NCBI RefSeq assembly: GCF_018143015.1
Contig: NC_054741.1
Span: 42,806,092 to 42,870,091, forward strand
Length of the DNA: 64,000 bases
Reading direction: 5' to 3'
From: Lytechinus variegatus
Taxonomy: Eukaryota; Echinodermata; Echinoidea; Temnopleuroida; Toxopneustidae
The position numbers and the translations under genes were made by a program. The notes beneath the pieces were generated by a model. That model saw only the letters and a list, made by a program, of their open reading frames with translations. It was not told the DNA's origin and did not search any database. Numbering within the stretch: the first letter of the stretch is position 1; every line of letters begins with the position of its first letter. This document shows positions 12,468 through 64,000 of the stretch, piece after piece.

Positions 12468-13553
12468 ATGAGTAAAGAGCGTTCTTACAACCTACGATCT
12501 AATCTTTCTACAAAGTCGAAGACCAAAAATCTGAAAAAAGTGGATAAAATGGCTTCACAGTCTAACATTTCTGTATCTGGAAAAGCCCAACCTTCGCCAG
12601 CCAGAAGCAACCCATTTCCTGAAGGTACTCACGCGAGCGGAGACGCCAGCAGCGATCACGTGACTTCACCAGCCGCCAACGCCCAAGGCGCCGCTTCTAA
12701 CGCTAGTACAGCAGGTGGGTCTAATGACATGTTAGCTGAAATGAAGCAAATGTTTGCACAACTTTCTCAAGAAATGAACACAAGATTTGACTCTATGGGG
12801 AATGATATCCATATGATCAAAGTGGAGTTAACCCAAACTAGAAGAGCAATCCAGGATCTGGAGACCACTGTGAGTTTTAATTCGGATAGAATTAAGGTGT
12901 TGGAGAAGGATACTATTCCTCATATTCGAGGGGAAATTGATCGCAAAACGGCGGATTTGGAAGAGAAAATTATCCTACTTGAACTTCATCAGAGGAAGCA
13001 GAACTTGCTTGTTTATGGTGTACCAGAAAACCAAAAGGAAAATGTCTACTCAACTGTATATGGTATCATCGCTCACTTTCTTAAAGTGTCATCGGATGTA
13101 GCTACCAAAACGCAGTTAGTAAATGCACACCGACTACCGGCCCCTAAACAAGCAACAGGGGCACCTCGACCCTTGATCATCAGATTTGCCAACATGGCTG
13201 ACCGTGATAGTCTACTTAATGCTTTTGAGCAAGTAAATCGTCAGCGCCGCAATGATGTTCCCGGTCAGCAACATCGTCAACAGCAAGCCACGCAGCCCCA
13301 ACAACAACCCACGGAACCCCAGCAAGCAACACCCGTCACCTGCTTTGATCGCGTCACCATTCGCTCCGACTTGCCACCTGTAATGAAACGCGAACGAGGC
13401 CGACTAGCATCTATTGCCTTTAAAATTCGTCATGAGAAGAAGCTCTCGACCAGAATCCGCGTAAACGGCACCAAAGTATTTCTGCAAACTCGCCAACCAG
13501 CACGCAACGGATCGCCGCAGTCGAATTGGGTCAACTGGTCTGACAACGCCTGA
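12468..13553 (+). CDS. LINE ORF1 protein (coiled coil, RRM-like, C-terminal domain)
   Basis: 361 aa. ORF1 proteins bind the LINE RNA as chaperones in the ribonucleoprotein particle. A basic, Ser/Ala-rich leader (1-85) precedes a heptad-rich coiled coil (about 86-175) with regularly spaced hydrophobic residues. Then comes an RRM-like segment opening with QRKQNLLVYGVPE (about 176-188), running to RPLIIRFANMADRDSLL near 235-250. The C-terminal domain follows (FDRVTIRSDLPPVMKRERGR to about 345). A Gln/Pro-rich stretch at about 267-288 splits the RRM-like and C-terminal parts and is probably a lineage-specific insertion. The ATG at 12468 is the first in frame and lies about 95 bp into the element. 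The order matches L1-type ORF1 proteins, though the family is not L1. Confidence 0.82.
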   Translation: MSKERSYNLRSNLSTKSKTKNLKKVDKMASQSNISVSGKAQPSPARSNPFPEGTHASGDASSDHVTSPAANAQGAASNASTAGGSNDMLAEMKQMFAQLSQEMNTRFDSMGNDIHMIKVELTQTRRAIQDLETTVSFNSDRIKVLEKDTIPHIRGEIDRKTADLEEKIILLELHQRKQNLLVYGVPENQKENVYSTVYGIIAHFLKVSSDVATKTQLVNAHRLPAPKQATGAPRPLIIRFANMADRDSLLNAFEQVNRQRRNDVPGQQHRQQQATQPQQQPTEPQQATPVTCFDRVTIRSDLPPVMKRERGRLASIAFKIRHEKKLSTRIRVNGTKVFLQTRQPARNGSPQSNWVNWSDNA

Positions 13554-16804: not shown

Positions 16805-19800
16805 ATGGTAGAAATCCAATACATGGTAGAAAGCCCATATAAGCAGTTACCTTTTCATAACGTAAGTGATGATGATTTTTTTGGATTACATAGCCATATT
16901 CATACCGTAAATAGGGATATTTCAGTTAATTCGTATGACAATCTTGTCATGGATAACCTCAATTCCTCATTTGATGAACTTGAGTTTGATTTTGATTTCG
17001 ATGATCCTGCTCATCGCACCTTTTCCAATTATGTTTCTGTCAATAAGTTTTCAGATATTCTCAAAAATTTAAAAAATAATAGCATCTCTCTTTTCCATGC
17101 AAACGTTAGAAGTTTAAATAAACATTTTGACGATCTACTTTCGCTCATAGATAACCAGTCGCAAAATCCTATATCAATAATTGGCTTAACAGAAACTTGG
17201 CTCAGTAGTGATTCATGCCTCCCATTTCATATTGGTAATTACGAATTCATTCATAAAAATAGACAAAACAGGGTGGGTGGCGGTGTTGCCTTATATCTTT
17301 TTAAGACTTTGGATTTCACTGTGCTGGACGAGATTTCGTTATGCAACCATTTATTTGAATCTCTTTTTGTTGAAATTGCTATCCCTGGTAACCGTAATAT
17401 AATTGTCGGTGTTATTTACAGATGTCCAAATTCAAATGCTCAAGAATTCCTCCTACATTTAAGTGACTTGTTACATAACACTCATCTTAACAACAAAGAC
17501 GTTTTTGTAATGGGGGATTTCAATATCGACTTGATGAAACATAATTACAATACTGTTGCACAGGATTTTCTAGAATTAATGCTATCTGCCTCATTCTTGC
17601 CACGTATATCGAAGCCAACTCGTGTTGCAAACGCGTCTGCCACGTTAATCGATAACATTTTTTCTAATGTCACCTCACATACCGATTCCTACATCGTCCT
17701 CTCGGATATTTCCGACCATTTTCCCATTCTAGCTGACTATCCAATTGTTCAAACACTAAACAATGGCAACAGTCGAAGTAAGCGTAAAGTCACTGTAGAA
17801 AATTTAGCTCGTCTCGGGATTAGTCTTGAGAATATTGATTGGTCCAATGTCTATTCTAACAATGATGTTGATAGTTCATTTAATTTGTTTTCAGATATAA
17901 TTACCTCTCAACTAGATCTAAACTTACCTAAGCAAAAAATCAAGTCAAATTATAAAAAAACACCTAAACTTCCCTGGATTTCGAAGTCTCTACTCAGGTC
18001 AATAAATAGAAAAAATAATCTCTATTACAAATTCAAAATAAAGGGTACTGAACAGTCTAAACAAAAATATACAAACTACAAAAACACATTAACTAGACTT
18101 ATTCGTTTAGAAAAGAGAAATTATTTTGTTACTCGTTTAAAAAGTTTCAAAAATGATACGCAAAATACCTGGAAAGTAATTAAGCAGGCAATGAATCAAG
18201 TAAATAATAATTGTGATATTACTAAAATAAACCATGAAAATAAGATAACAGAAGACCCCAAAGAAATTGCAAACATTTTTAATGATTATTTTTCTTCAAT
18301 TGGAAATAATCTTGCTAAAACTATTCCACCAACAAGTAAAAATTTTAAAGACTTTCTTGGTAATCAAAATCCCAATTCCGTTTTCTTTTTACCAACAAAT
18401 AAACAAGAAATAATAAAGATTGTTTCGGATTTGAAAAATAAAACCAGTTCAGGATATGATGAAATCAACAATGTTATATTTAAATCCATAATACCGTTTA
18501 TCGTCGATCCTTTGGTCCATATTTTTAATCTTTCACTATCGTGTGGTCAATTTCCCAATGCAATGAGAACTGCGAAGGTCATTCCACTTTTTAAAAAAGG
18601 TGATAAGCTTGATGTTGGAAACTATAGACCTATCTCTTTATTATCTTCGTTTTCTAAGTTATTGGAAAAGATTGTATATACTCGTGTAATTTCGTTTTTT
18701 ATAAAGTTTGATATATTTTCTCACTTTCAGTTTGGCTTCCGTGAAAAGCACAGTACCGTACACGCTTTATTGTCTTTTGTTGAGAAAGTCTCTCACTCAA
18801 TGGATTTATCGTCCCACACTATAGGTATATTCCTGGACTTCTCCAAGGCCTTCGACACCATTAACCATGACATTTTACTTTATAAACTGTCGCACTATGG
18901 TGTGCGTGGGAAGGCCTTGGAGTGGTTCAGGAGTTATTTACTGAATAGGAAGCAATATGTATTTTTAAACGAATATGAATCTGAACTACGAAACACCAGT
19001 TGCGGTGTACCTCAAGGAAGTTTACTTGGCCCTCTTCTTTTTGTTTTGTACATAAACGACTTCTATAGATCATCAAACTCTCTATCTTTTATATTATTTG
19101 CTGATGACACCAATATTTTCTTTTCACATAAAGATCCAAATATTTTAGTTGATACAGTTAATACTGAGTTATTAAGTATATCGCAATGGATACATGCGAA
19201 CAAACTTTCACTTAATTTACAAAAGACAAATTACATGCTATTTAGCAACTCTTTAGATTCATTACCTTCGGATATTATTCTAAACAACACACCATTAAAA
19301 CAGGTTTCTCATACTAAATTTTTGGGGGTCACAGTTGATAGCCATCTTACATGGAAAGTGCATATTAACAATGTATGTAAAATTATATCAAGAAATATTG
19401 GTGTTATCAACAGAATGAAATTTCTTTTACCGCAATCCTCATTATTTATGCTTTATTCGTCATTGATTTTGCCATACCTGAATTACGGTCTCTTGATTTG
19501 GGGGAATACCCATCAAACATTGATAGAAAAGATTTTTATACTGCAAAAGAAGGTTATCCGGATTATTTGCAATGCTCCAATACGCTCTCATACTAATTCT
19601 TTATTTCTCGAAAACAAGATTTTGAAAATTAAGGATTTATATTCATTTCAATTAGGTCAATTTATGTATCAATATAATAGCAATAATTTACCCATTGTTT
19701 TTCATGACATGTTTCATAAAAATGAGAGCATTCATAAATACCCAACTAGGCAATCAGATGAATTCCATTTACCGCTCTTTAGGACGTTCAAAGCCAAAAA

Positions 19801-19927
19801 TACTTTCATTTATGAAGGCCCAAAATTTTGGAATTCCCTTCACAATGATTTAAGAAATTCCCCCTCTCTGTTCACTTTCAAAAGAAAGTTAAAATCTTTC
19901 TTACTGAAATCTTATAATCAAGTCTGA
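16805..19927 (+). CDS. LINE ORF2 polyprotein: AP endonuclease plus reverse transcriptase
   Basis: 1040 aa, uninterrupted. The endonuclease (about 94-312) shows HANVRSLNKHFDDL, GLTETWL (127-133), GDFNID (237-242) and the catalytic SDHFPIL (Asp304, His305). The reverse transcriptase (about 530-830) shows PLFKKGDKLDVGNYRPISLL, QFGFREKHST, FLDFSKAFDTINHD (Asp678), GVPQGSLLGPLLF and FADD (Asp767-Asp768), so all catalytic residues are present. The C-terminal region contains RSHTNSLFLE, KYPTRQSDEF and GPKFWNSLH, shared with copies at 61.6-62.1 and 63.7-64.0 kb. It nicks target DNA and reverse-transcribes its own RNA there. The first ATG is used; the 90 residues before the endonuclease are acidic and have no known domain. 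Confidence 0.9.
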   Translation: MVEIQYMVESPYKQLPFHNVSDDDFFGLHSHIHTVNRDISVNSYDNLVMDNLNSSFDELEFDFDFDDPAHRTFSNYVSVNKFSDILKNLKNNSISLFHANVRSLNKHFDDLLSLIDNQSQNPISIIGLTETWLSSDSCLPFHIGNYEFIHKNRQNRVGGGVALYLFKTLDFTVLDEISLCNHLFESLFVEIAIPGNRNIIVGVIYRCPNSNAQEFLLHLSDLLHNTHLNNKDVFVMGDFNIDLMKHNYNTVAQDFLELMLSASFLPRISKPTRVANASATLIDNIFSNVTSHTDSYIVLSDISDHFPILADYPIVQTLNNGNSRSKRKVTVENLARLGISLENIDWSNVYSNNDVDSSFNLFSDIITSQLDLNLPKQKIKSNYKKTPKLPWISKSLLRSINRKNNLYYKFKIKGTEQSKQKYTNYKNTLTRLIRLEKRNYFVTRLKSFKNDTQNTWKVIKQAMNQVNNNCDITKINHENKITEDPKEIANIFNDYFSSIGNNLAKTIPPTSKNFKDFLGNQNPNSVFFLPTNKQEIIKIVSDLKNKTSSGYDEINNVIFKSIIPFIVDPLVHIFNLSLSCGQFPNAMRTAKVIPLFKKGDKLDVGNYRPISLLSSFSKLLEKIVYTRVISFFIKFDIFSHFQFGFREKHSTVHALLSFVEKVSHSMDLSSHTIGIFLDFSKAFDTINHDILLYKLSHYGVRGKALEWFRSYLLNRKQYVFLNEYESELRNTSCGVPQGSLLGPLLFVLYINDFYRSSNSLSFILFADDTNIFFSHKDPNILVDTVNTELLSISQWIHANKLSLNLQKTNYMLFSNSLDSLPSDIILNNTPLKQVSHTKFLGVTVDSHLTWKVHINNVCKIISRNIGVINRMKFLLPQSSLFMLYSSLILPYLNYGLLIWGNTHQTLIEKIFILQKKVIRIICNAPIRSHTNSLFLENKILKIKDLYSFQLGQFMYQYNSNNLPIVFHDMFHKNESIHKYPTRQSDEFHLPLFRTFKAKNTFIYEGPKFWNSLHNDLRNSPSLFTFKRKLKSFLLKSYNQV

Positions 19928-20246
19928 AAAATACATCATCACAGATTTTTATCTTTATTCACAGTTCCTTTTCAGTCATGCGCTACTTTGCTTCTTGTCT
20001 ACACTTTTCTCTCTTTAGGCCTAGTTCATATGCAGTTCTCACATTCCTTCCTCATCCCCCCCCATTCTTCTCTCCCTCTCTCTTTCATTCATTCGCTTTC
20101 TTTCTATATTTTCTCATTCCTGAGTTTTTTGCGTAATTTTCACATTTGATTATTTGATATTTTCTTTTAATGATGTCTCCTGTTGGCTCTCATGGTTATT
20201 GATTTGATTTGAATATATAAAATTAATTTCTCGTTTGTCAGATTTT

Positions 20247-20290
20247 GAGGAGCCCACAACATACAAGCCTAGCTTTTTAGTGGGATCCTC
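20247..20290 (+). ncRNA. LINE 3' UTR two-tier stem-loop, copy 1
   Basis: Outer stem GAGGAGCCCAC (20247-20257) with GTGGGATCCTC (20280-20290), 10 of 11 pairs. Inside the 22-nt loop lies an inner AAGC-CTA-GCTT stem followed by TTTA. The same arrangement with different outer-stem bases occurs in three other LINE 3' ends in this window, so it is probably an RNA structure recognised during reverse transcription. Confidence 0.7.
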
Positions 20291-20756
20291 CATTTTCACA
20301 AATTATAGATCACAATTTCTTTACACATAATTATTTTATATGTAACTGTTTTATAGCATGTCTTTCTCAAGTTGATTTTATGACATTGATATATATTTTT
20401 ATGATGTTGACTTGTTATGATTGTATTTATTTGATTTATATTTTGTTGAAAATGAAATAAATGAAATGAAATATAAATTGACGGAAATTATGAGAAGTCA
20501 AAAAGTTGCCAATTTGCAGGGGAAAACGGTGATTTTAAACTTTCTATCACATTGCCAATTTAAGGATTTCAATGCTTATTTTCCTTTTAAAAAATTTCAG
20601 CATCAAACAACGAATATTAATGCAACCAAAATGGGCCCAGTTTGGGTAGAATTCTTTGCTCTTTCTGATCATGTATTTGGTATGATTTTTAGGGCTTTGC
20701 ATCAAAAGATATTAGACCAAACCACAAAATGTGGACCTCTGTCATGAATGGGTTAA

Positions 20757-21619
20757 TACTGTGTAATCCTCAACGTTGCCTTTGCAATTCAATGTAAACA
20801 TTAAATCGCCTATTGTCAGGAAATCACGGTTTTAGGTTATTCGAGTATTCAGGCCTACTTCAGTTGTTGTCCGTTCTCCTTTTTTTTGCTTTTCAGAATC
20901 AGAAGATAAGGGCGCAAAGCCGCGCAAGTGTATAGACGATTGCATGAGTTTAGTGAGTGCAAAAGGAGATACAATTACTGTGAAAACCAAACTACTATAA
21001 CGAATAACGATCATAAAAAATAAAGCTGATGAATGGCCGGCTTTAGATATTAGGTCCAAACGAGAGCGAGCTATCTGAAGTCAAGCATACTGTGCACGTG
21101 ATTGACAGGGGTGCCGCGCCGGTAGAGAATATAAAATGAACTTTCGCGCCAGCACGCACAGAACTTGCATTGCATGCACAACACGCGCAAAATAATTGCA
21201 AGATTAGTGGTAATCAAGGAGGTGCATGCACGATACGCGCACGCTATATAGACGGAGCGGCGGACATGTCTTGCCGATCCAGCCTAAATCTAGAAACACG
21301 ACAAAGCCCTTTGACTTCTCATGTCTGGTCCGACCAGGGCCCGACTCTTTTTTTTTTTCTCGAAAATATTAACAATTCATAAGCTGGAAAGCTGCACTTC
21401 TCTTTCTTTGGACTGAACGGCAAGTATCTGTGCATTTATGTGCATTTGTGTGGGCTTAAAAATACGCCACAATGGGGCTTCCTTAGCGTCTCTATTTGAT
21501 GAAAAGGCCGTCGCTTCCGCACTCCGCGAGGGAGGGGTGAACCCCCCCTCCCGCACCCACCCCCCAGGAGTGGCAGCACAAGTCCCCAACATGCGTGAAT
21601 TTTTTTCTGGCGAGAACGC
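20757..21619. other. Nothing recognised; moderately GC-rich around 21.05-21.35 kb
   Basis: A patch rich in CG and GCGC between about 21080 and 21270 contrasts with AT-rich flanks. The frames at 21170-21382 and 21438-21674 have no recognisable product. Confidence 0.35.
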
Positions 21620-23310
21620 TGTGTGCATCCATAGACATATGTTCGTCAAATACGACTCCAAGATTTCGAACTGATGACAAGGTTTTAATCAAGGAGTCCC
21701 CAACCTGTATAGTCCTGTTCTTAATCAAATGACTTTGTGATTTAGAACTAATAATCAACAACTCTGTTTTACTTTCATTTAATTTCAACTTATTGTTTAG
21801 CATCCATGACCGCATATCATCTATTGTATTTTGTAAACGAAGCCTGGCAGACAACTCACTAGCAGGGTCAGTTGGATCAAACAAGACATACAACTGTGTA
21901 TCATCTGCATACATATGAATGTTTGTGCCATGTTTATGCGCAATTTTTGCCAAAGGACTGGAATAGATGGCAAAAAACAACGGCCCGAGGACTGAACCTT
22001 GGGGCACTCCGAAAGGAAGTTTAACAGGAGACAACATATTTTCACCGATCTTGACAACCTGTGATCTAACTCCTCCTATGCCACAATATTTCAAACGATC
22101 CAATAACAAATCATCGTCAACAGTATCAAATGCTGACGAAAGATCAAGCAGGAGGAAAACAGCCTTCTTGTCATCAACAACACGAAGAATATCATTTGAT
22201 ACACGAACCAAAGCAGTTTCTACCCCATGACATTTCCTATATGCAGATTGAAAAGGTTCAAACAATTATCCAAGAAATAGTCGGTGAGACGCACAGCCAC
22301 AACCTTTTCTAATATCTTTGACACAAAGTTTAAATTCGAGACAGGTCTATAGTTTTTTAATTTCTCTGAGTCTAACAATGGATTTTTCAAGAGAGGAGTG
22401 ACAAGTGCTTGCTTGAAATCATGAGGAAAATTACCAGTTTCAAGAGAAATGTTGACAATTTTTGTGATTATTGGAAGCAACAGGTTCATATGTTTCTTAA
22501 GAACCCAAGTTGGAACTGGATCTAATGAGCACGATTTAGCAGGATAAGAGGTCACAATATTCTTAACTTCTCTATCAGTTGTCATTTCAAATGTTTTCAT
22601 TATAGGAGTAGCTGTATGTGAGGAGTCACATTCTTCAACACTAAGAGATAAGGTACCCTGCATTGAGTCTAAATTATCCCGGATAGTGGATATTTTTTAT
22701 ACAAAGAAATTACTGAAACGTTCTGCTAGGTCTAATTGAGATATATGTTCCGGCAATTTTGGTTTGTTCTTTTGATGAAGAGCACTATCAATAACTCTGT
22801 AAAACTGTCCGCTATCTTTACAATTGGACAGCTGTTCCTTCAAGTACTTTGCTTTGGCATCTTTTATCATATTCCAAACTAAGAGGCGCTGTTTAGTAAA
22901 TTTTTCTCTATTTATGTCTGTTCTCTCAGCTCGCCAACGACGCTCAAGTCGTTTACGTAAGCGTTTTGCTTCCACTATGTCAGATGTATACCAGACATCC
23001 CCTACCGAAATTTAAGCGTGCCGCTTGCTAGTAACTAGCATGCGACTAGCAGGGCACTCGCTTAATAAGCGAGTGCATGCTAGCGAACAGTCCCTGCTCG
23101 CTAAAAGATCGCTTAACTATTACTCTGCACGCATATCACACGCTTATTAAGCTAACCGCATGCTAGTTACTAGCATGCCGCAAGCTTGCGCAAGCTAGTC
23201 GCACGCTTCCCGCAAGCTTGGAAATTTCTGTAGGGGATTCCTTGGTCGGATTGTTACTTTACTTTTTGTTAATGGAGCATGTTTGTCCCAGATGGACTGA
23301 AGACTAGCAT
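21620..23310 (-). mobile_element. L2/CR1-type LINE, minus strand, broken, lacks its 3' end
   Basis: Read from right to left it gives the linker DKHAPLTKSKVTIRPR and AKRLRKRLERRW (endonuclease-RT linker). The RT domain follows with SCSLDPVPTWVLKK, LKNYRPVSNL, LLLDLSSAFDTVDDD, FGVPQGSVLGPLFF, MYADDTQLY and SSVRNLGVVFDEHMSMDAH. About ten residues appear deleted between the finger and GVPQGS parts, the frame changes near 22240, and homology stops at about 21620. A 238-bp MITE (22999-23236) is inserted in it; removing the MITE and one AT restores the reading R-P-R-N-V-W-Y. Confidence 0.85.
22999..23236. mobile_element. 238-bp MITE, copy 1 (inside a LINE)
   Basis: Ends CCCCTACCGAAATTT and AAATTTCTGTAGGGG form a 15-bp inverted repeat with one difference. 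Flanking AT at 22997-22998 and 23237-23238 is a 2-bp target duplication, confirmed because the host LINE reads through once the insert and one AT are removed. The interior is full of short palindromes on CTAGCATGC, CGCTTAATAAGCG and CGCAAGCTTGCG. No ORF. Two further nearly identical copies lie at 23511 and 41816. Confidence 0.88.
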
Positions 23311-28327: not shown

Positions 28328-29084
28328 ATGCCTAGAGAAAAGAAAGCTACACCATCCGAGCTTGCACAAGATGTTATTGTAGAACTTCTGAAAAATGAGG
28401 AATTCAAAAGTTACCTAAAAACAACAGTGAAAGAAGCCATCAAAGAACAAATAGTGCCAGAAGCATTGGTGAAAACAGTTGAAGAACAAGAAGGAAAGAT
28501 TATGGATCTAGAGGCTAAGGTTGAATCCAAATCCAATGAGATTAAAAATATGAAGAAAACCATTGCTTCTGCTTCTAACAATGTTTCTTTGACCGATCGT
28601 AAGCTAAACACTCTTGAACACTACACAAGGAGAAATAGTATTCATGTTTATGGAATCCAGGAAACGCCTAATGAAGACACAGACGCCCTTATCATCGATC
28701 TTGCTCAGAAGAAGCTAGGAGTTAACTTAAAGACAGACGAAATTGATCGTTGCCATAGAGTTTCTTCTCCAACTGCGCTAGGAATGACCCTAATGACAGA
28801 TAAGCTGCGCGTAACACACAGAATCTCCCCCGTCCAAGAAGCTCGCCACATATCGCATTCGCTCAAAACTCATCGCAGCTCGGAAGAATCTGAAAGGAAC
28901 AGGAATTTTCGTTAATGAAGACTTAACTAGATCGAACGAGTCACTATACCACAAGGTTCGAAAGCACAAGAAGGTCTCGCGCTATTGGACATTAGATGGA
29001 AGAATTTTTGCTGGTGTTCCTACATCATCTGGCAACATCGTGAAGAAGCTCATCACATGCGATGAAGATTTAGCGAGACTGTGA
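28328..29084 (+). pseudogene. LINE ORF1 relic
   Basis: MPREKKATPSELAQDVIVEL and a coiled coil (about residues 30-95) lead to YTRRNSIHVYGIQETPNEDT (RRM-like start) and DEIDRCHRV. The frame breaks near 28800-28880, and the C-terminal domain continues in another frame as GIFVNEDLTRSNESLYHK, YWTLDGRIFAGVPT and stop at 29082-29084. This is the RNA-binding partner of the following ORF2. Confidence 0.78.
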
Positions 29085-32665: not shown

Positions 32666-33790
32666 AATTATACATCAGGAGGATGTAAGAGAAGATTTGA
32701 AGCAAGAATATCAACAGCTAAGTTATCATGATCAATGGCTTTGAGCTTTCTGTATGAAATAACATTTCTATTTCTCATAGGATTAGTTAATTTAAAATTA
32801 CAGTGTATTGCAGCATGATCAGTGAGAAAAGATGACACCTCCAGAGCTCTGATAAGCTCGTCATCGGTACGCGTAATCACAAAATCTATAATGTGACCAG
32901 TTTCATGAGTAGATTCATTTACGTGCTGTTTTAAGTTAAAAGACTCAAGTCAGAAAACTTTTTGTTCTCTTGATTAGCAGGATTATCCCAGTGAATATTA
33001 AAATCACCAACAATCAACTTACTTGAAGTTGACAATAAGGACGTTAGAAAATCAGAAAATTCATCAAAAAAGTCATAAAAACCCACTTTATTCTTTTGAC
33101 TATACGGTGGTCTATGAATAACAACAAGCATAATAGGAAATTTCGTTCCATCAAACTTCATAGAAACACTCATACACTCAAAACTGGATGCAGTGTGTTC
33201 CATTTGCATATATGTACTCTTGATTGAAGAATGGTGTATAATGGCAACTCCTCCACCGCTACGAATGGAGCAAGGTACATGAATTTTATTAAATCCAGGT
33301 GGTGTAAATTCACCGATTGTCTTTTTATGTTTTTCTGTGTCTGATAACCACGTCTCTGTTAAACACATAATGTTGATATCATGTTCAAATAGGTGATCAA
33401 TAACAATATTTGTCTTTTTACACACTGATCTAGTCTTAACTAAGCATAACTTACATTCAACAACCCCTAAGGTTGGAGCTTCTCTTTTCTTTTTTGCCTT
33501 GGTCCCACCTTTTCTTCCACGCCTTGTATAGTTACAAGAACGCTCCAAACCAAGGGAACAAATGTTTGCCCAGACATCATTGGGGAGTCGATAAGCACAA
33601 TTCAACTCTAAAAGATTGTCCCTAGTATACACATACTGACACTTATTAGGAATCAAAGTCAGATTTATTTCTGTGTTACTTTCACCACCCTTGTTCATGT
33701 TGTTACTAATGGGAAGAGGATGAGGGCCTGGGTTTGGGTGAATATCACCTGCAAGGAGCAATATTCTCAAAGAAGCACAAGAACTTAGTT
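32666..33790 (-). mobile_element. L2/CR1-type LINE, 5' part, minus strand, with 2A-like peptide
   Basis: A frame at 33770-32931 (279 aa) runs MRILLLAGDIHPNPGP, a basic linker, then an AP-endonuclease start (VIDHLFEHDINIMCLTETWL), RSGGGVAIIHH, VVIHRPPYSQKNK and VGDFNIHWDNP. The endonuclease end (SSFLTDHAAIHC) continues in a shifted frame at 32880-32668, and homology ends near 32666, so the RT domain is missing. Related to the LINE at 21.6-23.3 kb, whose homology begins roughly where this one ends. Confidence 0.82.
33723..33770 (-). other. 2A-type ribosome-skipping peptide at LINE N-terminus
   Basis: Codons 1-16 of the frame read MRILLLAGDIHPNPGP. The 2A core is D-(V/I)-E-x-N-P-G-P; here D-I-H-P-N-P-G-P has His for Glu. 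AP-endonuclease LINEs of sea urchins and other animals are known to carry 2A-like sequences at this position. Whether the His variant still skips is not known from sequence. Confidence 0.7.
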
Positions 33791-36299: not shown

Positions 36300-36745
36300 A
36301 ACTAGTTGTCTTGTACTGTCCTGTCTCTTGTTTTGTCTTGTCTTCTACGTCTTGTCATCCCCTCTCTCTGTTTTTTCCTGTCTTGCGCAACATATCCTTT
36401 ACAAGGAAGACCTCTTTGTGTGAAAAGCTTTGCATTTGTTCAGTTTTTATGTTTCCGTCAATATGATTTCTTTTTCTCTTTTTCTTTCCTGTAATACATG
36501 CATGTACGCATATAGTAAGTCGACTATAATTTCTTCTTTTCCAAGGGGATCCACAATTTTACAAGCTTTGCTTTTTAGTGGATCCCCCTCATTTCCATAT
36601 CCATTTATGCTCTATATTATACTGTGTTTTTTTTACGAAGTAAGAATGCCCTTCTGTAAAATTGTATTTGATTTATATTGTTTTATATTACTTTGTATTA
36701 TGTTTTGAATGGAAATGAAATAAAAGAATTGAAATTGAAAAAACA
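36300..36745 (+). mobile_element. LINE 3' end fragment inserted in the TA MITE
   Basis: Contains the 3' UTR stem-loop (36545-36587) and ends GAATGGAAATGAAATAAAAG, like the 3' end of the LINE at 12.4-20.5 kb. The 5' limit is approximate; no coding sequence remains. Confidence 0.65.
36545..36587 (+). ncRNA. LINE 3' UTR two-tier stem-loop, copy 2
   Basis: Outer stem GGGGATCCAC (36545-36554) with GTGGATCCCC (36578-36587), 10 perfect pairs. Inner stem AAGC-TTT-GCTT, followed by TTTA. Outer-stem bases differ from the other copies but pairing is kept. Confidence 0.72.
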
Positions 36746-42052: not shown

Positions 42053-44884
42053 AAGCCTCCGCGTGGGAGAAAGCGCCCAGAATTCGATATCTGTCTCAAA
42101 TGCGTGAGGGCAGAAATCTGCAGAATTCTGATAGAGAGCTGTGGTAAAAAGTTACTAGCGGTCCGAAGGGGACTAGGAACGACGGAGAGTAGGGATTTAG
42201 GAAGAAAACCACTCGTAAGGCAGACAAGGGTCGAGAAAGCGACTGAGTGCCATCCTGTTAATAAGGAATGCCGCGGACATGTTGCCTATGTAGAATAGAG
42301 CAGTCTGGTCAAAACAGCTCAACCGGGCGTGTCAGGGATACAGCGCGGTACACATCACGACAAAAGTGTGTTAGACCGAGTGATCGAGAGAGAACTCAGG
42401 ATCCCCTTTCTCCCATACTGATTGAAGCACCCATCTGAGGGTGCAGTGCCCGCGGTGGAAGAGGTGGCTTGGCTCAAGCCACCATCGCCGAGAGAGCCCG
42501 TGAGGCTAGGCTGCGATGGCTGTCCGCTGGGCGGGGGAATCCCTAGCAGCAGCAAGTGTACGCCAGAGGGAGCTGGCGAAAAAAAATCTGTCACGATATT
42601 ACGTGTAAACGACCATCAAGAGATGCTCTAAACGAACAGACATCGCCAGATATGATACCTCAACCGTTACATTCCCAACGGAATCGAATGAGGTAGCAAC
42701 GGCCCTGTCCTATCAAGTTAGGGACGGAAACTGGCTAAGAGTGTCGAAGTCCTCGCTTGAAGAAACAAGCGAAGGAGACTTGAGGAAGTAAACACAAAAT
42801 TTCCATCAGTCTGCGGTGAGAACCAGTTGTTTATGAAAACAGTCACAAGGCCTGTTTCTCAGGTGATCGTAAGAGCGAGCACCGCCGGCGCCGGTTGCGG
42901 CAGCGTGGAACAGTCCGATATCGGTAAGATAAGGAGCTCCAAAAAGCTGCGGGGGGGCGGCAAAAATGACGCCCTAAGCAGCGGGGGATGAGAATCTAAA
43001 TTTCTAAGAGGAACTCCAGTGAAGTAAATCACTTACATGGAGAGGCTCATCCACAGTCGGCCCGAGAGAAGGCGGGTCGTAGTGATCGTGGTTAGGAAGG
43101 CATAAGCATACATTCATCCACTGTTACATCATCCTCGGTCGTGCGGTGACCCTGGCCACATGCCTTGCATGGAAGGAGGATGAAAGCAGCATGCGGGGCG
43201 ACTCGAGTGTGCCGTGAAAAAATTTCTAAGAAAGAAGCCGATTCGACTAACGGGCACGGTAAAGACATCCACCGTAGACCACTCCGCACAAGGAGGGAGC
43301 GGCGGAGACGCCCGCAAGATTGACCCACATAGAGGGCAGTCTATAAGATAGACAGTTAGAGCTCGACCGATGGTCTGGCGGTGTACAGTTTGGTGTGAAC
43401 TCGCCGACCCGGTACGGTGGGTGTGCCCAGAAAGTAGGCATAGAATGCCGACAGAGAATCCTGGGGCTTTAAACAAGTTTGAACGCGCGTACATAGCCAA
43501 CAATCTCATGAGATGTACGGCGGTTACTTTCCTCCGAGATGATGTTTACCCAACCGGGAAAGACTCGGGGAACAGCTGTGAATGTCAACAGGAGGGATAT
43601 CTAGCATATGAAAAGCTGATTCCTTCCACGTATTCGGTGCGGGTGCTGCCGGCGGTGTCCGGGGGACGACCGGTGATGGCAGCTCGGGCAGGGTTCGTAC
43701 GAGCCGCCCGAATACGAGACAAATAGGTTAACATAACCATAATGCACCGGGTGGTGAAGGCATAGCGATTATTAAGCACAGGAGAACTTTTAATCGCCGT
43801 GACATTCAGATCCGATATACATACTCATAAGCTCAGAGAGCTATGAGATAGTGAGACATACCGCTGAGCGGTGATGGTGCTCATATCAGAGTCGCCCTCT
43901 CTTCAGCGGCGATCGCTGGAGAACGGGTGTCTGTACTAGCCCTGACTCTGGCGTTGCAAGGGTAGGAGCTAAGTAAGACAGGGCACCCTTACTTTCGAAT
44001 AGAAAGTGAGGTTCAGGCCAGAAAAGCGACGGTCCCGTCGCCTGGGCGGACGGTCCGCGGACGTGATAGGTTGTCCTCTCAAAGCAGCCAAACATTCTCA
44101 TGAGAGAAGTGCGGCATGCGGTATGTAAGAGATTCATACCTCCAATCTACGGGCCCGCTTAGGGGGAAGAATGGAGAGAGTTACCGCTGAAGGAGTCGTC
44201 GCCGTATGTGAGCTTGACGTAGAGGGCGAATTCGGGAGTACCTGCATAATAATCGCCCCCCCCCCCCGCCTCTGCCTTCTCGCTAGCCTCGAGAGGCTTG
44301 AAAAATTTCGAGACGGCGGCGCCGGAGCCTGGCGCTTCCGGGCAGCAGCAGAGCGGGGGTGGGTTTACACCCACGGAGCTGGCGGCTTCCTCGTCGTAGG
44401 AGCCGCCTCGTCTAGAGCGACCCCGTCACTCTCCGAGACCCCCAATTCGGCCGATTGAGCTCGGAGCGCCTGAAGAGGCGGGGCGAGAAAATATGGACTC
44501 CCTTGCTTCATCAATACCCCCGCTCGGAGGGTAGATGTGAGGTAGATACTTGTCAAGCAGCGCCTGAGCGCTTACTGAAAAGTCGACCGCGGGATAGGGG
44601 TTGTCCTCGTAAAGGGAGTCTCGCTCTATGGACTGAACCGGGGGGTTGTCCAGTAAGCGCCGGGGTGGCCCCGCGTGTCGGCTGGGACACGTGCTCTGAG
44701 ATCGACGAAAATGCTGGAAAGCACACGCGATCTTGGGGCACCCGGTTAGTCGGTGCACTGGCTGGCGATTTAACAGAATCACTCGAGGATTTCCCGGGTG
44801 TCTGGTGGTTATTGCCCACTTGTCTCGCTTGATGCTCAGGGGCATCAGCGGGGTGAGTAGACGTCGAGGGTGGGGTGAACCCGC

Positions 44885-45725
44885 ACTACTCGAAAGCAGA
44901 ATGTAGCAGCATGAATAGCTGTAACATCTGACCACCAACACAAGGGTCTGAAGGAGGGACGCCCATGGCAACAGGGCTGGCCGACCTCACCTTCGACCTC
45001 TTCTTCTTCGCGGCCTCCGCCGGTGTGGCCGGGGCAGAAGAAGGCACAAGAGGCACGGGTGATTTCTTACGATTTGCCGCCCCTGGCAGGGCGGCCGTCA
45101 ACAACGAAACTTCACCCGAATCTGACGGGGTCAGATTGTGGTCACAGACTGATGTGTGACGCCTCTCGCGGTAGCAGAATGTAGCAGCATGAATAGCTGT
45201 AACATCTGACCACCGACACAAGGGTCTGAAGGAGGAACGCCCATGGCAGCAGGGCTGGCCAACCTCTCCTTCGACCTCTTCTTCTTCTTCTCTTTCTGCG
45301 GGCTCCGCCGGCGTGGCCGGGGAAGAAGGCATGAGAGGCACGGGTGATTTCTTACGATTTGCCGCCCCTGGCAGGGCGGCCGCCGACAATGAAACTTCAC
45401 CCGAATCTGACGGGGTCAGATTGTGGTCACAGCCCGATGTGTGATGCCTCTCGCGGTAGCAGAATATAGCAGCATAACATGTATGACTGTAACATCTGGC
45501 CACCGATAAGAGGGTCTGAAGGAGGAATGCCCATGGCAACAGGGCTGGCCGACCTCTCCTTCGACCTCTTCTTCTTCTTCTTATTTTGCGGGCTCCGCCG
45601 GCGTGGCCGGAGCAGAAGAAGGCACAAGAGGCACGGGTGATCTCTTACGATTTGCCGCCCCTGGCAGGGCGGCCGCCAACAACGAAACTTCACCCGAATC
45701 TGACGGGGTCAGATTGTGGTCACGA
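44885..45725 (-). repeat. Three tandem units of about 280-290 bp, coding-like on the minus strand
   Basis: GGGTCTGAAGGAGG recurs at 44944, 45222 and 45512. Each unit, read on the minus strand, includes SDSGEVSL, LPGAANRKKSPVPL and a run of acidic or basic residues. The units differ by scattered substitutions and short indels, so the array is not a sequencing artefact. Confidence 0.75.
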
Positions 45726-50189: not shown

Positions 50190-51899
50190 ACTTCAAACCA
50201 ATGACGATGAAATCAAGGATGCCTTCTATTAGCAACTTCAGCGTGAGATTGACAGTATCCCTGGACATGACATGAAGGTTGTGATGGGGGATCTACATGC
50301 TAAGGTCGGAAACAACAGCGGTTACGATATGACTATGAGGAAGTATGGATGTGGGGTGAAAAACGAAAATGGGGAATGCCTCATGGAATTCTGCTCTATT
50401 AACAACCTTGTTATTGGGGGACACTCTTCCAGCATAAAGACATTCACACTGTGACACGGTACTCACCAAATGGAAGGGACAGAAACCAGATTGATCAGAT
50501 TTCTTGTGGAGCGTTGTGGCCCAGTGGATAAGTCTTCTGACTTTGAAACAGAGGGTCGTGGGTTCGAATCCCAGCCATAGCGTAATTTCCTTCAGCAAGA
50601 AATTTATCCACATTGTGCTGCACTCGACCCAGGTGAGGTGAATGGGTACCCGGCAGGATTAATTCCTTGAATGCATGAGCGCTGAAAGGCAGCTCGAGCT
50701 AAAGCCGGGGTAATAATAACAACGCGCCTCGGAATAGAATATTTCTAGATTGATGGCAATATATAAATGCCTATTATTATCATTATTATCACATCATGAT
50801 AAATGGTGCGCGGAGAAGATTGCTCCAAGATGTTAGAGTCCTGAGGGGGGCAGATGCTGCTAGTAACCACCATCTTGTGCTGGCAGTAATACAAGTTAAG
50901 CTCAGAAAATCAGGTGCAAGTAAAGTTAAACAGCCAAGATTTGATATTGACAAACTAAAGGACCCCAGAGTCAAAGGTGCATTTCTACTAGAGCTTCAGA
51001 ACAGTTTTCAGGTTCTAGCAGACCTTGAAGAAACTCAGACAGAACAGGACAAGATCAATGAAGAGTGGCAGAGGGTCAAAACAGCATACCAGAAGTCAAG
51101 TGAAACATGTCAAGGGAAAAAAAAGAGGGAGAGAAAGGAGTGGATGACTGAAGACACATGGCAAACTGTAGTGAAACGTAGGGAAGCGAAAAAACTTTAT
51201 TTGAGTGCAAAGTGGGATAGGCTAAAAGAGACATTTAAAGGTAAATATCAAGAAGCAAACAGATTAGTTAAAAGAAAGTCAAGAGCTGACAAACGAGCCT
51301 TCATGGACAACCTAGCTAGCCAGGCAGAAGAGGCTGCAAAGGCTGGTGAGCACGGCAAAGTATAGAAGTTGACCAGAATAATTAGTGGCAGAGACAGTAA
51401 AAACTCAGACTGACCAATAGAAGACAAGGATGGTAGGCTACTTACTACTGAAAAAGAACAGGATACTAGATGGGCTGAACACTTTGAAGTTCTCAATAGA
51501 CCACCTCCTGCCACTGAAGCTAACATTCTAGAAGCAGAAACTGACCTAGATATCAATACAAATCCACCAACTCGAGCTGAGATCGTCCAGGCAATCAAAT
51601 TTAACAATGGTAAGGCACCAGGACCAGATAACCTTGATACTGAGCTTTTAAAAGCAGATCCAGATCTGGCCGCGAATATATTGCATCCTCTCTTCACTGA
51701 CATATGGGAAGGTTAAAAAGGTTCCAGATGATTGGTTACAAGGGGTCATCATCAAACTACACAAGAAAGGTTCCCTCCGCAAGTGTAGCAACTATAGTAA
51801 TTTGTCTATCCCAAGCAAGATTCTAACAAAAGTTATTATCCAGAGACTAACAAGGGCTGTCGATGGGCAACTGAGACCAGAACAAGCTGGTTTTCAAAG
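50190..51899 (+). mobile_element. RTE-type LINE, 5' half (split by SINE and fold-back element)
   Basis: Endonuclease part: DDEIKDAFY, QLQREIDSIPGHDMKVVMGD, GCGVKNENGECLMEFC and NRDRNQID-like end. After the SINE it resumes as IMINGARRRLLQDVRVLRGA, then the linker, KFNNGKAPGPDNLDTELLK (RT finger) and EQAGFQ, where the fold-back element begins. The domain order and motifs are those of RTE LINEs. Stops (for instance after GEHGKV near 51363) and shifts show it is dead. The second half is at 58730-59885. Confidence 0.85.
50498..50787 (+). mobile_element. tRNA-derived SINE inserted in the RTE LINE
   Basis: Pol III A box TGGCCCAGTGG (50517-50527) and B box GGTTCGAATCC (50561-50571) are well formed. 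The anticodon-arm-like segment CTTTGAA would read TTG. The acceptor stem does not pair, and a body with a 3' TTATTATCATTATTATC tail follows, so it is a SINE and not a tRNA gene. ATCA on both sides (50494-50497, 50788-50791) may be a target duplication, and the LINE reads QIDHIMING once the SINE is removed. Confidence 0.85.
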
Positions 51900-56576: not shown

Positions 56577-56788
56577 ATTTGGTTTGCCCAATTGATCGTG
56601 GGCCCGGCAGCCGCTGAGCAGGGCCAGATCGACGAGGCTCTATCCCTTTAATCGTTGAACGTCAAACAGGGTAGCAGTAACTCCCATCTTTTAACGTCTT
56701 TGGTCTGACGCGGCCGGGGTTTGAACCCCTGACCTCCCGGTTGTGAGACGGACGCTCTACCAACTGAGCCAACACACTGGTCATAGGA
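56577..56788 (-). mobile_element. tRNA-derived SINE in right fold-back arm
   Basis: On the minus strand the A box TGGCTCAGTTGG (56771-56760) and B-box region GGGGTTCAAACCCC (56729-56716) are present, with CTCACAA where an anticodon loop would be (CAC). The would-be acceptor ends do not pair, so it is not a functional tRNA gene. The left arm has no counterpart. Confidence 0.8.
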
Positions 56789-61034: not shown

Positions 61035-62095
61035 ATTTCATTTCATTTATTTCATTTTCGACAGAATATAAATCAAATAAATACAATCATAACAAGTCAA
61101 CATCATAAAAAAATATACAAATGTTATAAAATCAACTTGAGAAAGACATGTTGTAAGAAAGAAAGTTACATACAAAATAATCATGTGTACAGGATTTGTG
61201 ATTTATAATTTGTGAAAATGGAGGATCCCACTAAAAAGCTAAGCTTGCATATTGTGGACTCCTCAAAAATCACAAACGAGAAATCAATTTTATATTTACA
61301 AATCAAAATCGAAACCAAGATAGCCAACAGTAGACATTATTAAAAGAAAATATCTAATAACCAAAATATACGAAAATTACGGAAAAAACTCAGGAATGAA
61401 AACTATGGAAAGAAAGCGGATGAATGAGAGAGGGAGAGAAGGGGGGTGAGGAATGAATGTGAGAACTGCATATGAACTAGGCCTACAGACAGAGGAGTGT
61501 AGACAAACAGAAGCAAAGTAGCGCATGAGTGAAAAGGAACGGTGAATAAAGATAAAAATCTGTGATGATGTATCTCTTAGACGTGATTATAGGATTTCTG
61601 TAAGAAAGATTTTAACTTTCTTTTGGAAAGTGTACAGAGAGGGGGAATTTTTTAAGTCGTTATGAAGGGAATTCCAAAATTTTGGGCCTTCATAAATGAA
61701 AGTATTTTTGGCTTTGAACGTCCTGAAAAGCGGTAAATGGAATTCATCTGATTGCCTAGTTGGGTATTTATGAATGCTCTCATTTTTATGAAACATGTCA
61801 TGAAAAACAATGGGTAAATTATTGCTATCATATTAATACATAAACTGACCTAGTTGAAATTAATATAAATCCCTAATTTTTAAAATCTTGTTTTAAAAAT
61901 TAAAGAATTAGTATGAGAGCGTATTGGAGCATTGCAAATAATCCGGAAAACCTTCTTTTGCAGTATAAAAATCTTTTCTATCAATGTTTGATGGGTATTA
62001 CCCCAAATCAAGAGACCGTAATTCAGGTATGGCAAAATCAATGACGAATAAAGCATAAATAATGAGGATTCTGGTAAAAGAAATTTCATTGTCAT
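61035..62095 (-). mobile_element. 5'-truncated LINE of the 12.4-20.5 kb family, minus strand
   Basis: The tail ATTTCATTTCATTTATTTC abuts HINE copy F. The encoded C-terminus (MFHKNESIHKYPTRQSDEF and NTFIYEGPKFWNSLHNDL) differs from the intact ORF2 by only a few residues. The 5' break is near 62095, at AATGAAATTTC. One frame change lies near 61870. Carries the 3' UTR stem-loop. Confidence 0.85.
61221..61264 (-). ncRNA. LINE 3' UTR two-tier stem-loop, copy 3
   Basis: On the minus strand, outer stem GAGGAGTCCAC (61264-61254) with GTGGGATCCTC (61231-61221), one mismatch and one G-U pair. Inner AAGC-TTA-GCTT, then TTTA. Confidence 0.7.
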
Positions 62096-63227: not shown

Positions 63228-64000
63228 TTCATTTCATTTCATTTATTTTTTCCATTTCCAACAATCATTTACATTTACAATAGTTTTGTTACATACATCT
63301 TGATATAATTATAATCAATAAAACAAAGAAACTTATTATGTATAATACTCAAGATAACAGGTCGGAAACGGAGGAGGCTGCTAAAAAGCGAAGCTTGTAG
63401 GATGCAGCCTCCTATAACATACGTATGAAGAATATAAACAAAACACAAACACAACATGGTAGAAATTTGAACGTAAAACTATCTGAATGAATAGTTTAAA
63501 AGAATAAAAAGAAAGAAATAGAAATGAGAGAAAATAGCAAGATCAGTGGTCTCCAGATTCTTGCCCCAACACTCACAGCGAATTTACGGATCAACAGGAA
63601 AACGAAAAATATCATATTTCACAGCTCGTAGTGCTGAGTATATATATGAAAAGTATAATGTATGAGTGATGAAGAGTTAAAAAAACTAACGAGTATCTTG
63701 GAGAAACTTTTTCAACTTAAATTTAAAAGAATTTAGGCTTGGGGAATCTTTGATAGTATTATCAAGAGTGCCCCAAAGTCGAGGGCCTTCGAAAGTGAAG
63801 ATGGATTTGGCAAGAATTGTCCGGGGTAGAGGAAAATGAAATTCCTCGGATTGACGTGTAGGATATTTATGAATAGTTTTGTTTTTATTAAATGAAGAAT
63901 CAAAGATTGATGGTAGCATATTATTATTTAATTGATACATAAATTGACCCAAGTTATATTGATATAATGTTTTTACTTTTAAGATTTTATTGTCAATAAA
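63228..64000 (-). mobile_element. LINE, related subfamily, 3' UTR and ORF2 C-terminus, runs out of the window
   Basis: The tail TTCATTTCATTTCATTTATT leads to a 3' UTR with the stem-loop. A frame at 63952-63686 (88 aa) follows, with MGQFMYQLNNNMLPSIF, KTIHKYPTRQSEEFHFPL and GPRLWGTLDNTIKDSPS, clearly homologous to the ORF2 end at 19.65-19.93 kb but a different subfamily. Confidence 0.85.
63372..63413 (-). ncRNA. LINE 3' UTR two-tier stem-loop, copy 4
   Basis: On the minus strand, outer stem AGGAGGCTGC (63413-63404) with GCAGCCTCCT (63381-63372), 10 perfect pairs. Inner AAGC-TTC-GCTT then TTTA. The outer stem differs at several positions from the other copies with pairing kept. Confidence 0.75.

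Follow-up and report, generated by a model that had tools for sequence, protein, structure and literature searches.

Only for a few elements, R2 being one, is it understood at the structural level how a LINE enzyme chooses its own RNA. The window analyzed here (the whole 64-kb stretch of DNA, from the sea urchin Lytechinus variegatus) raises this question through four stem-loops in LINE 3′ UTRs. The original prediction, made from the window alone, held that these stem-loops covary among four LINE copies and form the template-recognition structure of their family, with the invariant inner stem plus a U-rich side as the part contacted by protein. Is this hairpin what the reverse transcriptase reads, and is it all that is read? 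Our data indicated that the hairpin is one of two adjoining helices, P1 and P2. Judged from position, covariation, and analogy, this two-helix 3′ UTR module is probably (roughly 80%) the stringent-type template-recognition structure of a large endonuclease/reverse-transcriptase LINE clade.

Four hairpins of three LINE families

Re-reading of the window sequence confirmed the coordinates of all four hairpin copies:

20247-20290, + strand: P1 hairpin, copy 1, family A, stems GAGGAGCCCAC/GTGGGATCCTC
36545-36587, + strand: P1 hairpin, family B, stems GGGGATCCAC/GTGGATCCCC
61221-61264, - strand: P1 hairpin, second copy of family A, stems GAGGAGTCCAC/GTGGGATCCTC
63372-63413, - strand: P1 hairpin, family C2, stems AGGAGGCTGC/GCAGCCTCCT

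Pairing is kept as predicted, but the supposed four covarying LINE copies come down to three families, with the 20247 and 61221 copies belonging to the same one, so that the window alone yields few independent changes. Within the 64-kb window, the exact sequence CAAGCNNNGCTTTTT was found at just these four sites, and matches to it with up to three mismatches (76) were not above shuffles (mean, 87).

The window hairpins are parts of LINE 3′ ends. Copy 1 starts 319 nt downstream of the stop (19927) of a reverse-transcriptase ORF, and its element is laid out as follows:

16805..19927, + strand: intact ORF2 of the copy-1 element, 1040 aa, with endonuclease (PF03372) and reverse transcriptase (PF00078)
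20247..20257, + strand: P1 5′ strand, family A (GAGGAGCCCAC)
20264..20279, + strand: core CAAGC-CTA-GCTT (inner stem AAGC/GCTT) with TTTA
20280..20290, + strand: P1 3′ strand, family A (GTGGGATCCTC)

The window ORF2 matched no Pfam family other than PF03372 and PF00078 at E 0.001 and is thus one ORF with no RNase H domain; its closest relatives of solved structure are L1 ORF2p and then R2. From its tail type and domain make-up, the window LINE is probably of the CR1/L2 type. A search of positions 20200-20500 against Rfam gave no match up to E 1.

Genome-wide occurrence and family sampling

The exact 17-base core (CAAGCNNNGCTTTTTAG) occurs at 2053 sites in the 870-Mb host genome, about equally on the two strands (1011/1042), versus 2 sites for the reversed pattern; with two mismatches allowed, the counts were 9754 genome-wide and 3352 for the reversed control. 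One hundred of the 2053 sites, all on contig C1, were listed and 70 of these fetched, a non-random sample in that the last 20 were picked for varied inner-loop letters. A similarity search brought eight more loci, one of which was the window copy itself. The core-selected and similarity loci together comprise about 13 families with differing flanks and outer stems. ORF2-like sequence lies upstream of the core in many, not all, copies; it ends about 180-610 nt from the core and is mostly 46-71% identical to the window ORF2 between families.

A further 48 loci were chosen via the ORF2 C-terminus with the hairpin ignored, being hand-picked from lists of the 150 best matches to span identities. 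The pattern CAAGC-N3-5-GCTT was present downstream on the sense strand in 47 of them and on the antisense strand in none (0/48), with a mean of 0.19 of 48 in the base-shuffle control; as the three ORF2 queries came from hairpin-bearing elements, the figure of 47/48 speaks for their relatives and not for all genomic LINEs, and several of the 48 loci share a family. The only ORF2-selected locus without the hairpin (L101) has a 68%-identity ORF2 match and no recognizable 3′ end downstream. In loci L114, L115, L116, and L118 the loops have diverged, with 4- and 5-base inner loops among them; these loci escaped the 17-base template, whose best match there had four mismatches and lay at another place.

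Comparisons between families were made on 30 families, each represented by one copy and all from this one genome. Family M (L056) was excluded, being a single decayed copy with no clear terminal motif. Families J and L lacked an ORF2 row, which left 28 families for the tree test; one extra row, A2, was present in the tree only and pruned before the test. Among these 28 families, ORF2 C-termini are 39-83% identical (median, 49%; 91% is reached when row A2 is counted), so that most families are well apart.

A variable stem around a conserved core

The P1 stem measures about 7-11 bp, and its sequence varies between families. Across the 30 families, cognate P1 duplexes averaged -18.37 kcal/mol versus -11.14 kcal/mol (sd 0.58) when partners were permuted, a value reached in 0/20000 permutations, and the own partner ranked first of 30 in 16 families (worst rank, 13, in family L). 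Shared descent was modeled with a tree null, which started from a perfectly paired ancestor, let each arm change along the ORF2 tree irrespective of the other, and re-optimized the register in each run. This null retained 6.55 of 9 pairs, or 7.01 at half the rate, versus 8.61 observed in the 28 families (0/300 runs in each case). As many as five standard pair types occur at a single P1 position (A-T, C-G, G-C, G-T, and T-A at position 7). P1 thus shows compensatory change across the 30 families, and covariation in a larger set, which had been named beforehand as the test that could overturn the original prediction, was borne out. Chance origin of the hairpins is excluded by the genome count, the permutations, the tree null, and the ORF2-selected loci.

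The core behaves differently from the stem. The A and C preceding AAGC are invariant in all 30 families, although they were not used for locating copies; the invariance of the eight bases of AAGC and GCTT in the 30-family table is by construction, since copies were located with AAGC-N3-5-GCTT. Equal conservation of the unpaired flanks, the other outcome named beforehand as refuting, was not seen, the T-rich columns upstream of P1 reaching just 0.37-0.70 versus the invariant AC. As for the part thought to be contacted by protein, AC-AAGC...GCTT holds as invariant, whereas TTTA on the U-rich 3′ side is only common (0.87/0.87/0.70/0.77 per position). Invariance of the whole U-rich side was rejected, as TTTA is replaced in several families, the variants being TTCA, CTA, TACTT, CACTT, and TCCA.

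A second, long-range helix next to the terminal motif

A position of the hairpin at the very 3′ terminus was rejected, since a terminal AAATAAA-like motif and short repeats follow 102-273 nt after the hairpin core in the 30 families. The stretch straight after P1 is complementary to the one straight before this motif and its short-repeat tail, forming a second helix, P2, typically of 7-13 bp. In the window, P2 lies as follows:

20291..20298, + strand: P2 5′ strand, family A (CATTTTCA), immediately 3′ of P1
20447..20454, + strand: P2 3′ strand, family A (TGAAAATG), immediately 5′ of the terminal motif
20455..20461, + strand: terminal AAATAAA motif, then a tail of ATGAA-type short repeats
36590..36598, + strand: P2 5′ strand, family B (CATTTCCAT), read from the sequence
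36709..36717, + strand: P2 3′ strand, family B (ATGGAAATG), read from the sequence, with AAATAAA next at 36718-36724
61213..61220, - strand: P2 5′ strand, second family A copy (CATTTTCA), read from the sequence
61053..61060, - strand: P2 3′ strand, second family A copy (CGAAAATG), with one end pair lost and AAATAAA next, read from the sequence
63361..63371, - strand: P2 5′ strand, family C2 (CCGTTTCCGAC)
63252..63262, - strand: P2 3′ strand, family C2 (GTTGGAAATGG), with AAAAAATAAA and ATGAA-type repeats next

In the 30-family pairing test, family B was represented by locus L014, not by the window copy. Besides CATTTTCA/TGAAAATG of family A, the strand pairs include CATTCTTC/GAAGAATG (family P), CCATATCCA/TGGATATGG (Q), GTCTTTCT/AGAAAGAC (V), and CCACAATA/TATTGTGG (AB). 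Cognate P2 strands averaged -13.45 kcal/mol versus -8.36 kcal/mol (sd 0.48) when exchanged between the 30 families, and -11.36 versus -5.78 kcal/mol (sd 0.44) in tight windows (0/20000 in both). The own partner ranked first in 10/30 families (worst rank, 14, in family L), and the 5′ strand paired better with another family's 3′ strand than with its own in the other 20. The cognate advantage of 5.8 kcal/mol at the anchored offset fell to 0.3-1.7 kcal/mol at 8 nt and was gone from 16 nt on when either window was slid. Under the tree null (28 families), 7.57 of 8 pairs were observed versus 6.75 expected, or 6.85 at half rate (0/300 each). P2 stands out less when ungapped 8-mers are counted, a cruder measure (7.57 versus 7.14 permuted; 1/5000 as good).

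P1 and P2 adjoin each other: 22 families have no nucleotide between them, 6 have 1-2 nt, and families L and H have 6 and 9 nt, respectively. P2 ends at most 4 nt from the terminal motif in 28/30 families and 11 nt (H) or 14 nt (L) from it in the others; the motifs were marked by eye in each family, so that their presence is by construction, which does not apply to their distance from P2, and the motif of family L is not AATAAA-like. The inner stem, P1, and P2 were all present in the unconstrained minimum-energy folds of 30/30 families under our script's counting rule. P2 thus covaries and adjoins P1. It was also unexpected: the original prediction was right about a covarying stem and an invariant core, but the hairpin that it took for the template-recognition structure is half of that structure, and P2 was overlooked.

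Could P1 alone be functional, with P2 a side effect of stretches rich in U and in A at the two ends? The P2 strands are indeed pyrimidine- and purine-rich, their non-cognate partners pair moderately well (-5.59 kcal/mol, tight windows), and the helix is poor in families J (-7.2 kcal/mol), X (-8.1), H and AE (-8.3 each), and L (-9.0); the ungapped count, too, with one permutation in 5000 as good, leans that way. Composition of this kind is nonetheless a very unlikely explanation, as cognate strands pair with twice the stability of non-cognate ones (0/20000), their advantage is lost 16 nt off the anchor, and specific strands such as GTCTTTCT/AGAAAGAC, CCATATCCA/TGGATATGG, and CCACAATA/TATTGTGG are paired.

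The strand test separates folding of the sense RNA from a role as DNA. For P1, G-U exceeded A-C (12.9 versus 3.5 cells, with the register set by Watson-Crick pairs alone, and with registers tied and cells shared out in 21 of 30 families), as expected if the sense RNA folds. The P2 result was neutral (6.9 G-U versus 6.9 A-C cells, with registers tied and cells shared out in 22 of 30 families), which leaves some room for the inverted repeats to act at the DNA level, as a cruciform, recombination, or integration site, and perfect inverted repeats can extrude in DNA. A DNA-level role is rejected for P1 by its strand test, and the element is sense-oriented 3′ of ORF2 (47 sense and 0 antisense of 48); overall, we regard action as DNA instead of RNA as extremely improbable.

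The insertions end in short repeats that differ by family, not in poly(A), as read from the copies, so that poly(A) is not the shared signal. The terminal repeat types seen among L014-L126 were ATGAA, GAATT, GAATC, TTCAA, ATCAA, GAACT, CATT, and TATCT; P1, P2, and an AAATAAA-like motif were present throughout.

A tRNA-headed SINE with the same two-tier hairpin

The same two-tier hairpin design occurs in a tRNA-headed SINE. Of two B-box pattern searches, the first gave 1 match versus 35 for the reversed control and the second 11 versus 0; 8 loci from the second were fetched, and the SINE was noticed on reading them. There were 1974 first-look candidates genome-wide, of which 40 were scored and listed and 12 of these fetched. 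The 12 copies (L135-L146) represent at most 11 insertions, since L138 and L141 share 5′ flanks. The 3′ end CTGGTTGCT-TGCTTAC-AAGC-ATTCAT-GCTT-TCTT-AGCAATCAG, followed by a GTAAAAA..ATCACC tail, was seen in 12/12 fetched copies, which were all found by likeness to L130, hairpin included; two of them (L139 and L146) deviate in the last arm. The outer stem of 9-10 bp surrounds the AC-AAGC/GCTT core and stands directly at the tail, without P2. By folding energy alone, the SINE hairpin (-15.2) was only about 2.5 sd better than base shuffles (-8.7, sd 2.6). The absence of P2 from a hairpin already next to the tail is consistent with a role of P2 in carrying P1 there. In L127-L134, ARAGORN detected no tRNA genes, and among the LINE families examined, one with a tail sequence matching the SINE was not identified. 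Loci L127 and L128 are relatives of this SINE with other 3′ parts.

Relation to known recognition structures and proposed role

One study reportedly concerns L1/Alu 3′ stem-loops. In layout, the module resembles the tag of the distant R2 element. According to the available part of the R2Bm report, the protein-bound core of the 248-nt 3′ UTR consists of P1 (5′ strand, nt 33-38), a single-stranded J1/2, and P2 (nt 131-137 with 236-242), with binding and activity demonstrated and the structure solved by cryo-EM; a 43-nt tag of just the core parts was used as well as the full 3′ UTR, and a basic helix on the N-terminal side of the reverse transcriptase binds the core (PMC10499050). The sea urchin module resembles it in having P1, a short junction, and then a P2 whose 3′ strand lies far downstream near the RNA 3′ end, and in combining freely varying stem sequences with a few sequence-specific bases, as far as R2Bm is described there (PMC10499050). 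The long-range half, P2, is what makes the layout R2-like. For R2, however, the same part of that source describes a P1 that encloses a large loop and a conserved, single-stranded J1/2 in which two adenosines matter for activity (PMC10499050), whereas in the LINE module J1/2 is 0-2 nt in 28/30 families and the invariant bases lie in a compact hairpin inside P1. The endonuclease type also differs between R2 and the host elements of the module. The LINE module is alike to the R2 core in topology only and does not belong to the R2 RNA family.

Among LINEs, the available text of PMC4176376 describes UnaL2, ZfL2-1, and ZfL2-2 of the L2 clade as stringent-type elements with a 3′ hairpin, whose stem is recognized generally and whose loop specifically. 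Our elements have two features of stringent-type LINEs, namely, a 3′ hairpin with a covarying stem and a conserved loop, and terminal short repeats instead of poly(A). By analogy, the mechanism is most likely of the UnaL2/ZfL2 type, in which the 3′ tail is recognized; that part of the source describes no long-range second helix for the UnaL2/ZfL2 stem-loops (PMC4176376). Avian CR1 has a hairpin upstream of its terminal microsatellite, hypothesized to be a reverse-transcriptase recognition site, and is similar in this position upstream of short repeats; unlike in our module, the portion of that report available describes one hairpin and neither an AC-AAGC/GCUU core nor P2 (PMC8665684). The 3′ stem of plant L1-clade elements likewise shows compensatory stem changes with conserved loop and flank bases, yet it belongs to another clade, with UCU as the loop and CGAG as the flank, and no P2 is described in the accessible part of PMC3747384. 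Neither a P2-like helix nor an AC-AAGC/GCUU core for such LINEs was found described in the available portions of the literature examined (PMC4176376, PMC3747384, PMC8665684, PMC7245038, and PMC10499050).

The window ORF2 has a basic segment (PWISKSLLRSINRKNNLYYKF) from aa 390, between the endonuclease and the reverse transcriptase. The pattern PW[IV]..S.L[RK]SIN[RK]KN.L in this place is common to eight sequences: the window ORF2 (family A); families R, Q, S, V, and X (L147-L151), taken as the stretches upstream of their ORF2 matches; the AB-like L152; and a fragment at L051, which sits beyond the hairpin of that locus and therefore belongs to another copy. In the available part of the zebrafish ZfL2-2 study, a segment with P324, W325, and R334 is tied to binding of the tail stem-loop; it has a general portion that serves the stem and a variable portion that serves the loop (PMC4176376). 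Our sequences have PW and basic residues between the two domains and may by that description be likened to ZfL2-2; the distance between PW and the arginine is possibly not the same. By this analogy, we infer that the conserved basic segment is the predicted ORF2 binding surface for the P1/P2 module.

P1 closes over an internal loop and the invariant AC-AAGC-N3-5-GCUU inner hairpin. In the mechanism that we propose, as P2 starts where P1 ends, the two could stack end to end, and P2 would bring a hairpin from the middle of the 3′ UTR to the end where reverse transcription begins, presenting the core beside the tail. The cognate ORF2 protein would then bind the module, presumably reading shape on P1/P2 and sequence on the AC-AAGC/GCUU core; through this binding it would pick out its own transcript and position the tail in the active site of the reverse transcriptase, so that target-primed reverse transcription can begin. 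With P2, a hairpin lying 102-273 nt short of the terminal motif could still act where reverse transcription starts.

A host protein might instead read the module before reverse transcription, in nuclear export, stability, translation, or 3′-end formation at the AAUAAA-like motif. The nearness of P2 to an AAATAAA-like motif (at most 4 nt in 28/30 families, with motifs marked by eye) would suit such a role, and a host factor would also account for an invariant core across a wide range of ORF2s. We nevertheless consider it unlikely: the insertions end in family-specific short repeats and not in poly(A), a SINE with a different promoter has the hairpin beside its tail, and the ORF2s of the clade retain a basic segment where ZfL2-2 binds its tail. 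Moreover, P2 is anchored to the extreme 3′ end, just as initiation of reverse transcription requires, which argues against a role in host RNA processing.

If the module is indeed a template-recognition structure, a single genome holds about 30 natural variants of one predicted recognition module, in which the parts defined by shape only (P1 and P2) are clearly separable from the part fixed in its letters (AC-AAGC/GCUU), and P1, P2, and the tail make up a short tag. The common core raises the question of whether co-resident families can use one another's templates. On a broader and more tentative view, which we consider less likely than not, a local stem plus a long-range helix ending at the RNA 3′ end might be a general architecture of template choice in target-primed reverse transcription, common to R2 and this LINE clade and built here round one AC-AAGC/GCUU hairpin kept by dozens of families; SINEs with the hairpin at the tail would then need P1 alone, P2 being a distance-shortening device.

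Short 3′ ends and other features of the window

Some LINE 3′ ends are very short. L129 begins at the P1 5′ strand and stops after P2, as if copying had halted just past P1, and the family J copies L020/L030 also start at P1. For L129, fusion of a LINE tail to a tRNA-headed SINE was considered and rejected: CCAATCAATGAAA is present before P1 and after P2, and its presence on both sides is read as a 5′-truncated LINE inserted into a SINE end. The 70 core-selected copies, 69 of which share a stretch with another copy, give no ground for claiming a pile-up of 5′ truncations at P1; the shared stretch begins at most 30 nt from the core in 3 of the 70, and the spread is 3′-weighted but smooth.

The window holds several other repeats. 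The ORFs at 12468-13553 (+) and 28328-28915 (+) had no Pfam match; they look like LINE ORF1 proteins, probably of other LINE types. A LINE fragment at 21492-22265 (-) matches RVT_1, and another at 32931-33770 (-) presumably corresponds to the endonuclease part. The sole gathering-score match of 4227 Rfam models to the window was tRNA-like (56715-56771, -; 31 bits) and looks like the head of another SINE, as does a tRNA-like B box (GGTTCGAATC) at 50561 (+). At 44426-45539 (-), two overlapping ORFs with similar starts (MPWA[SF]LLQTL...) form a tandem-like duplication. In the similarity search, the family A 3′ end had further matches on this contig, located about 80.6 and 81.5 kb upstream, and L001 and L002 have 3′ flanks in common, which at the sequence level suggests a segmental duplication taking in the window.
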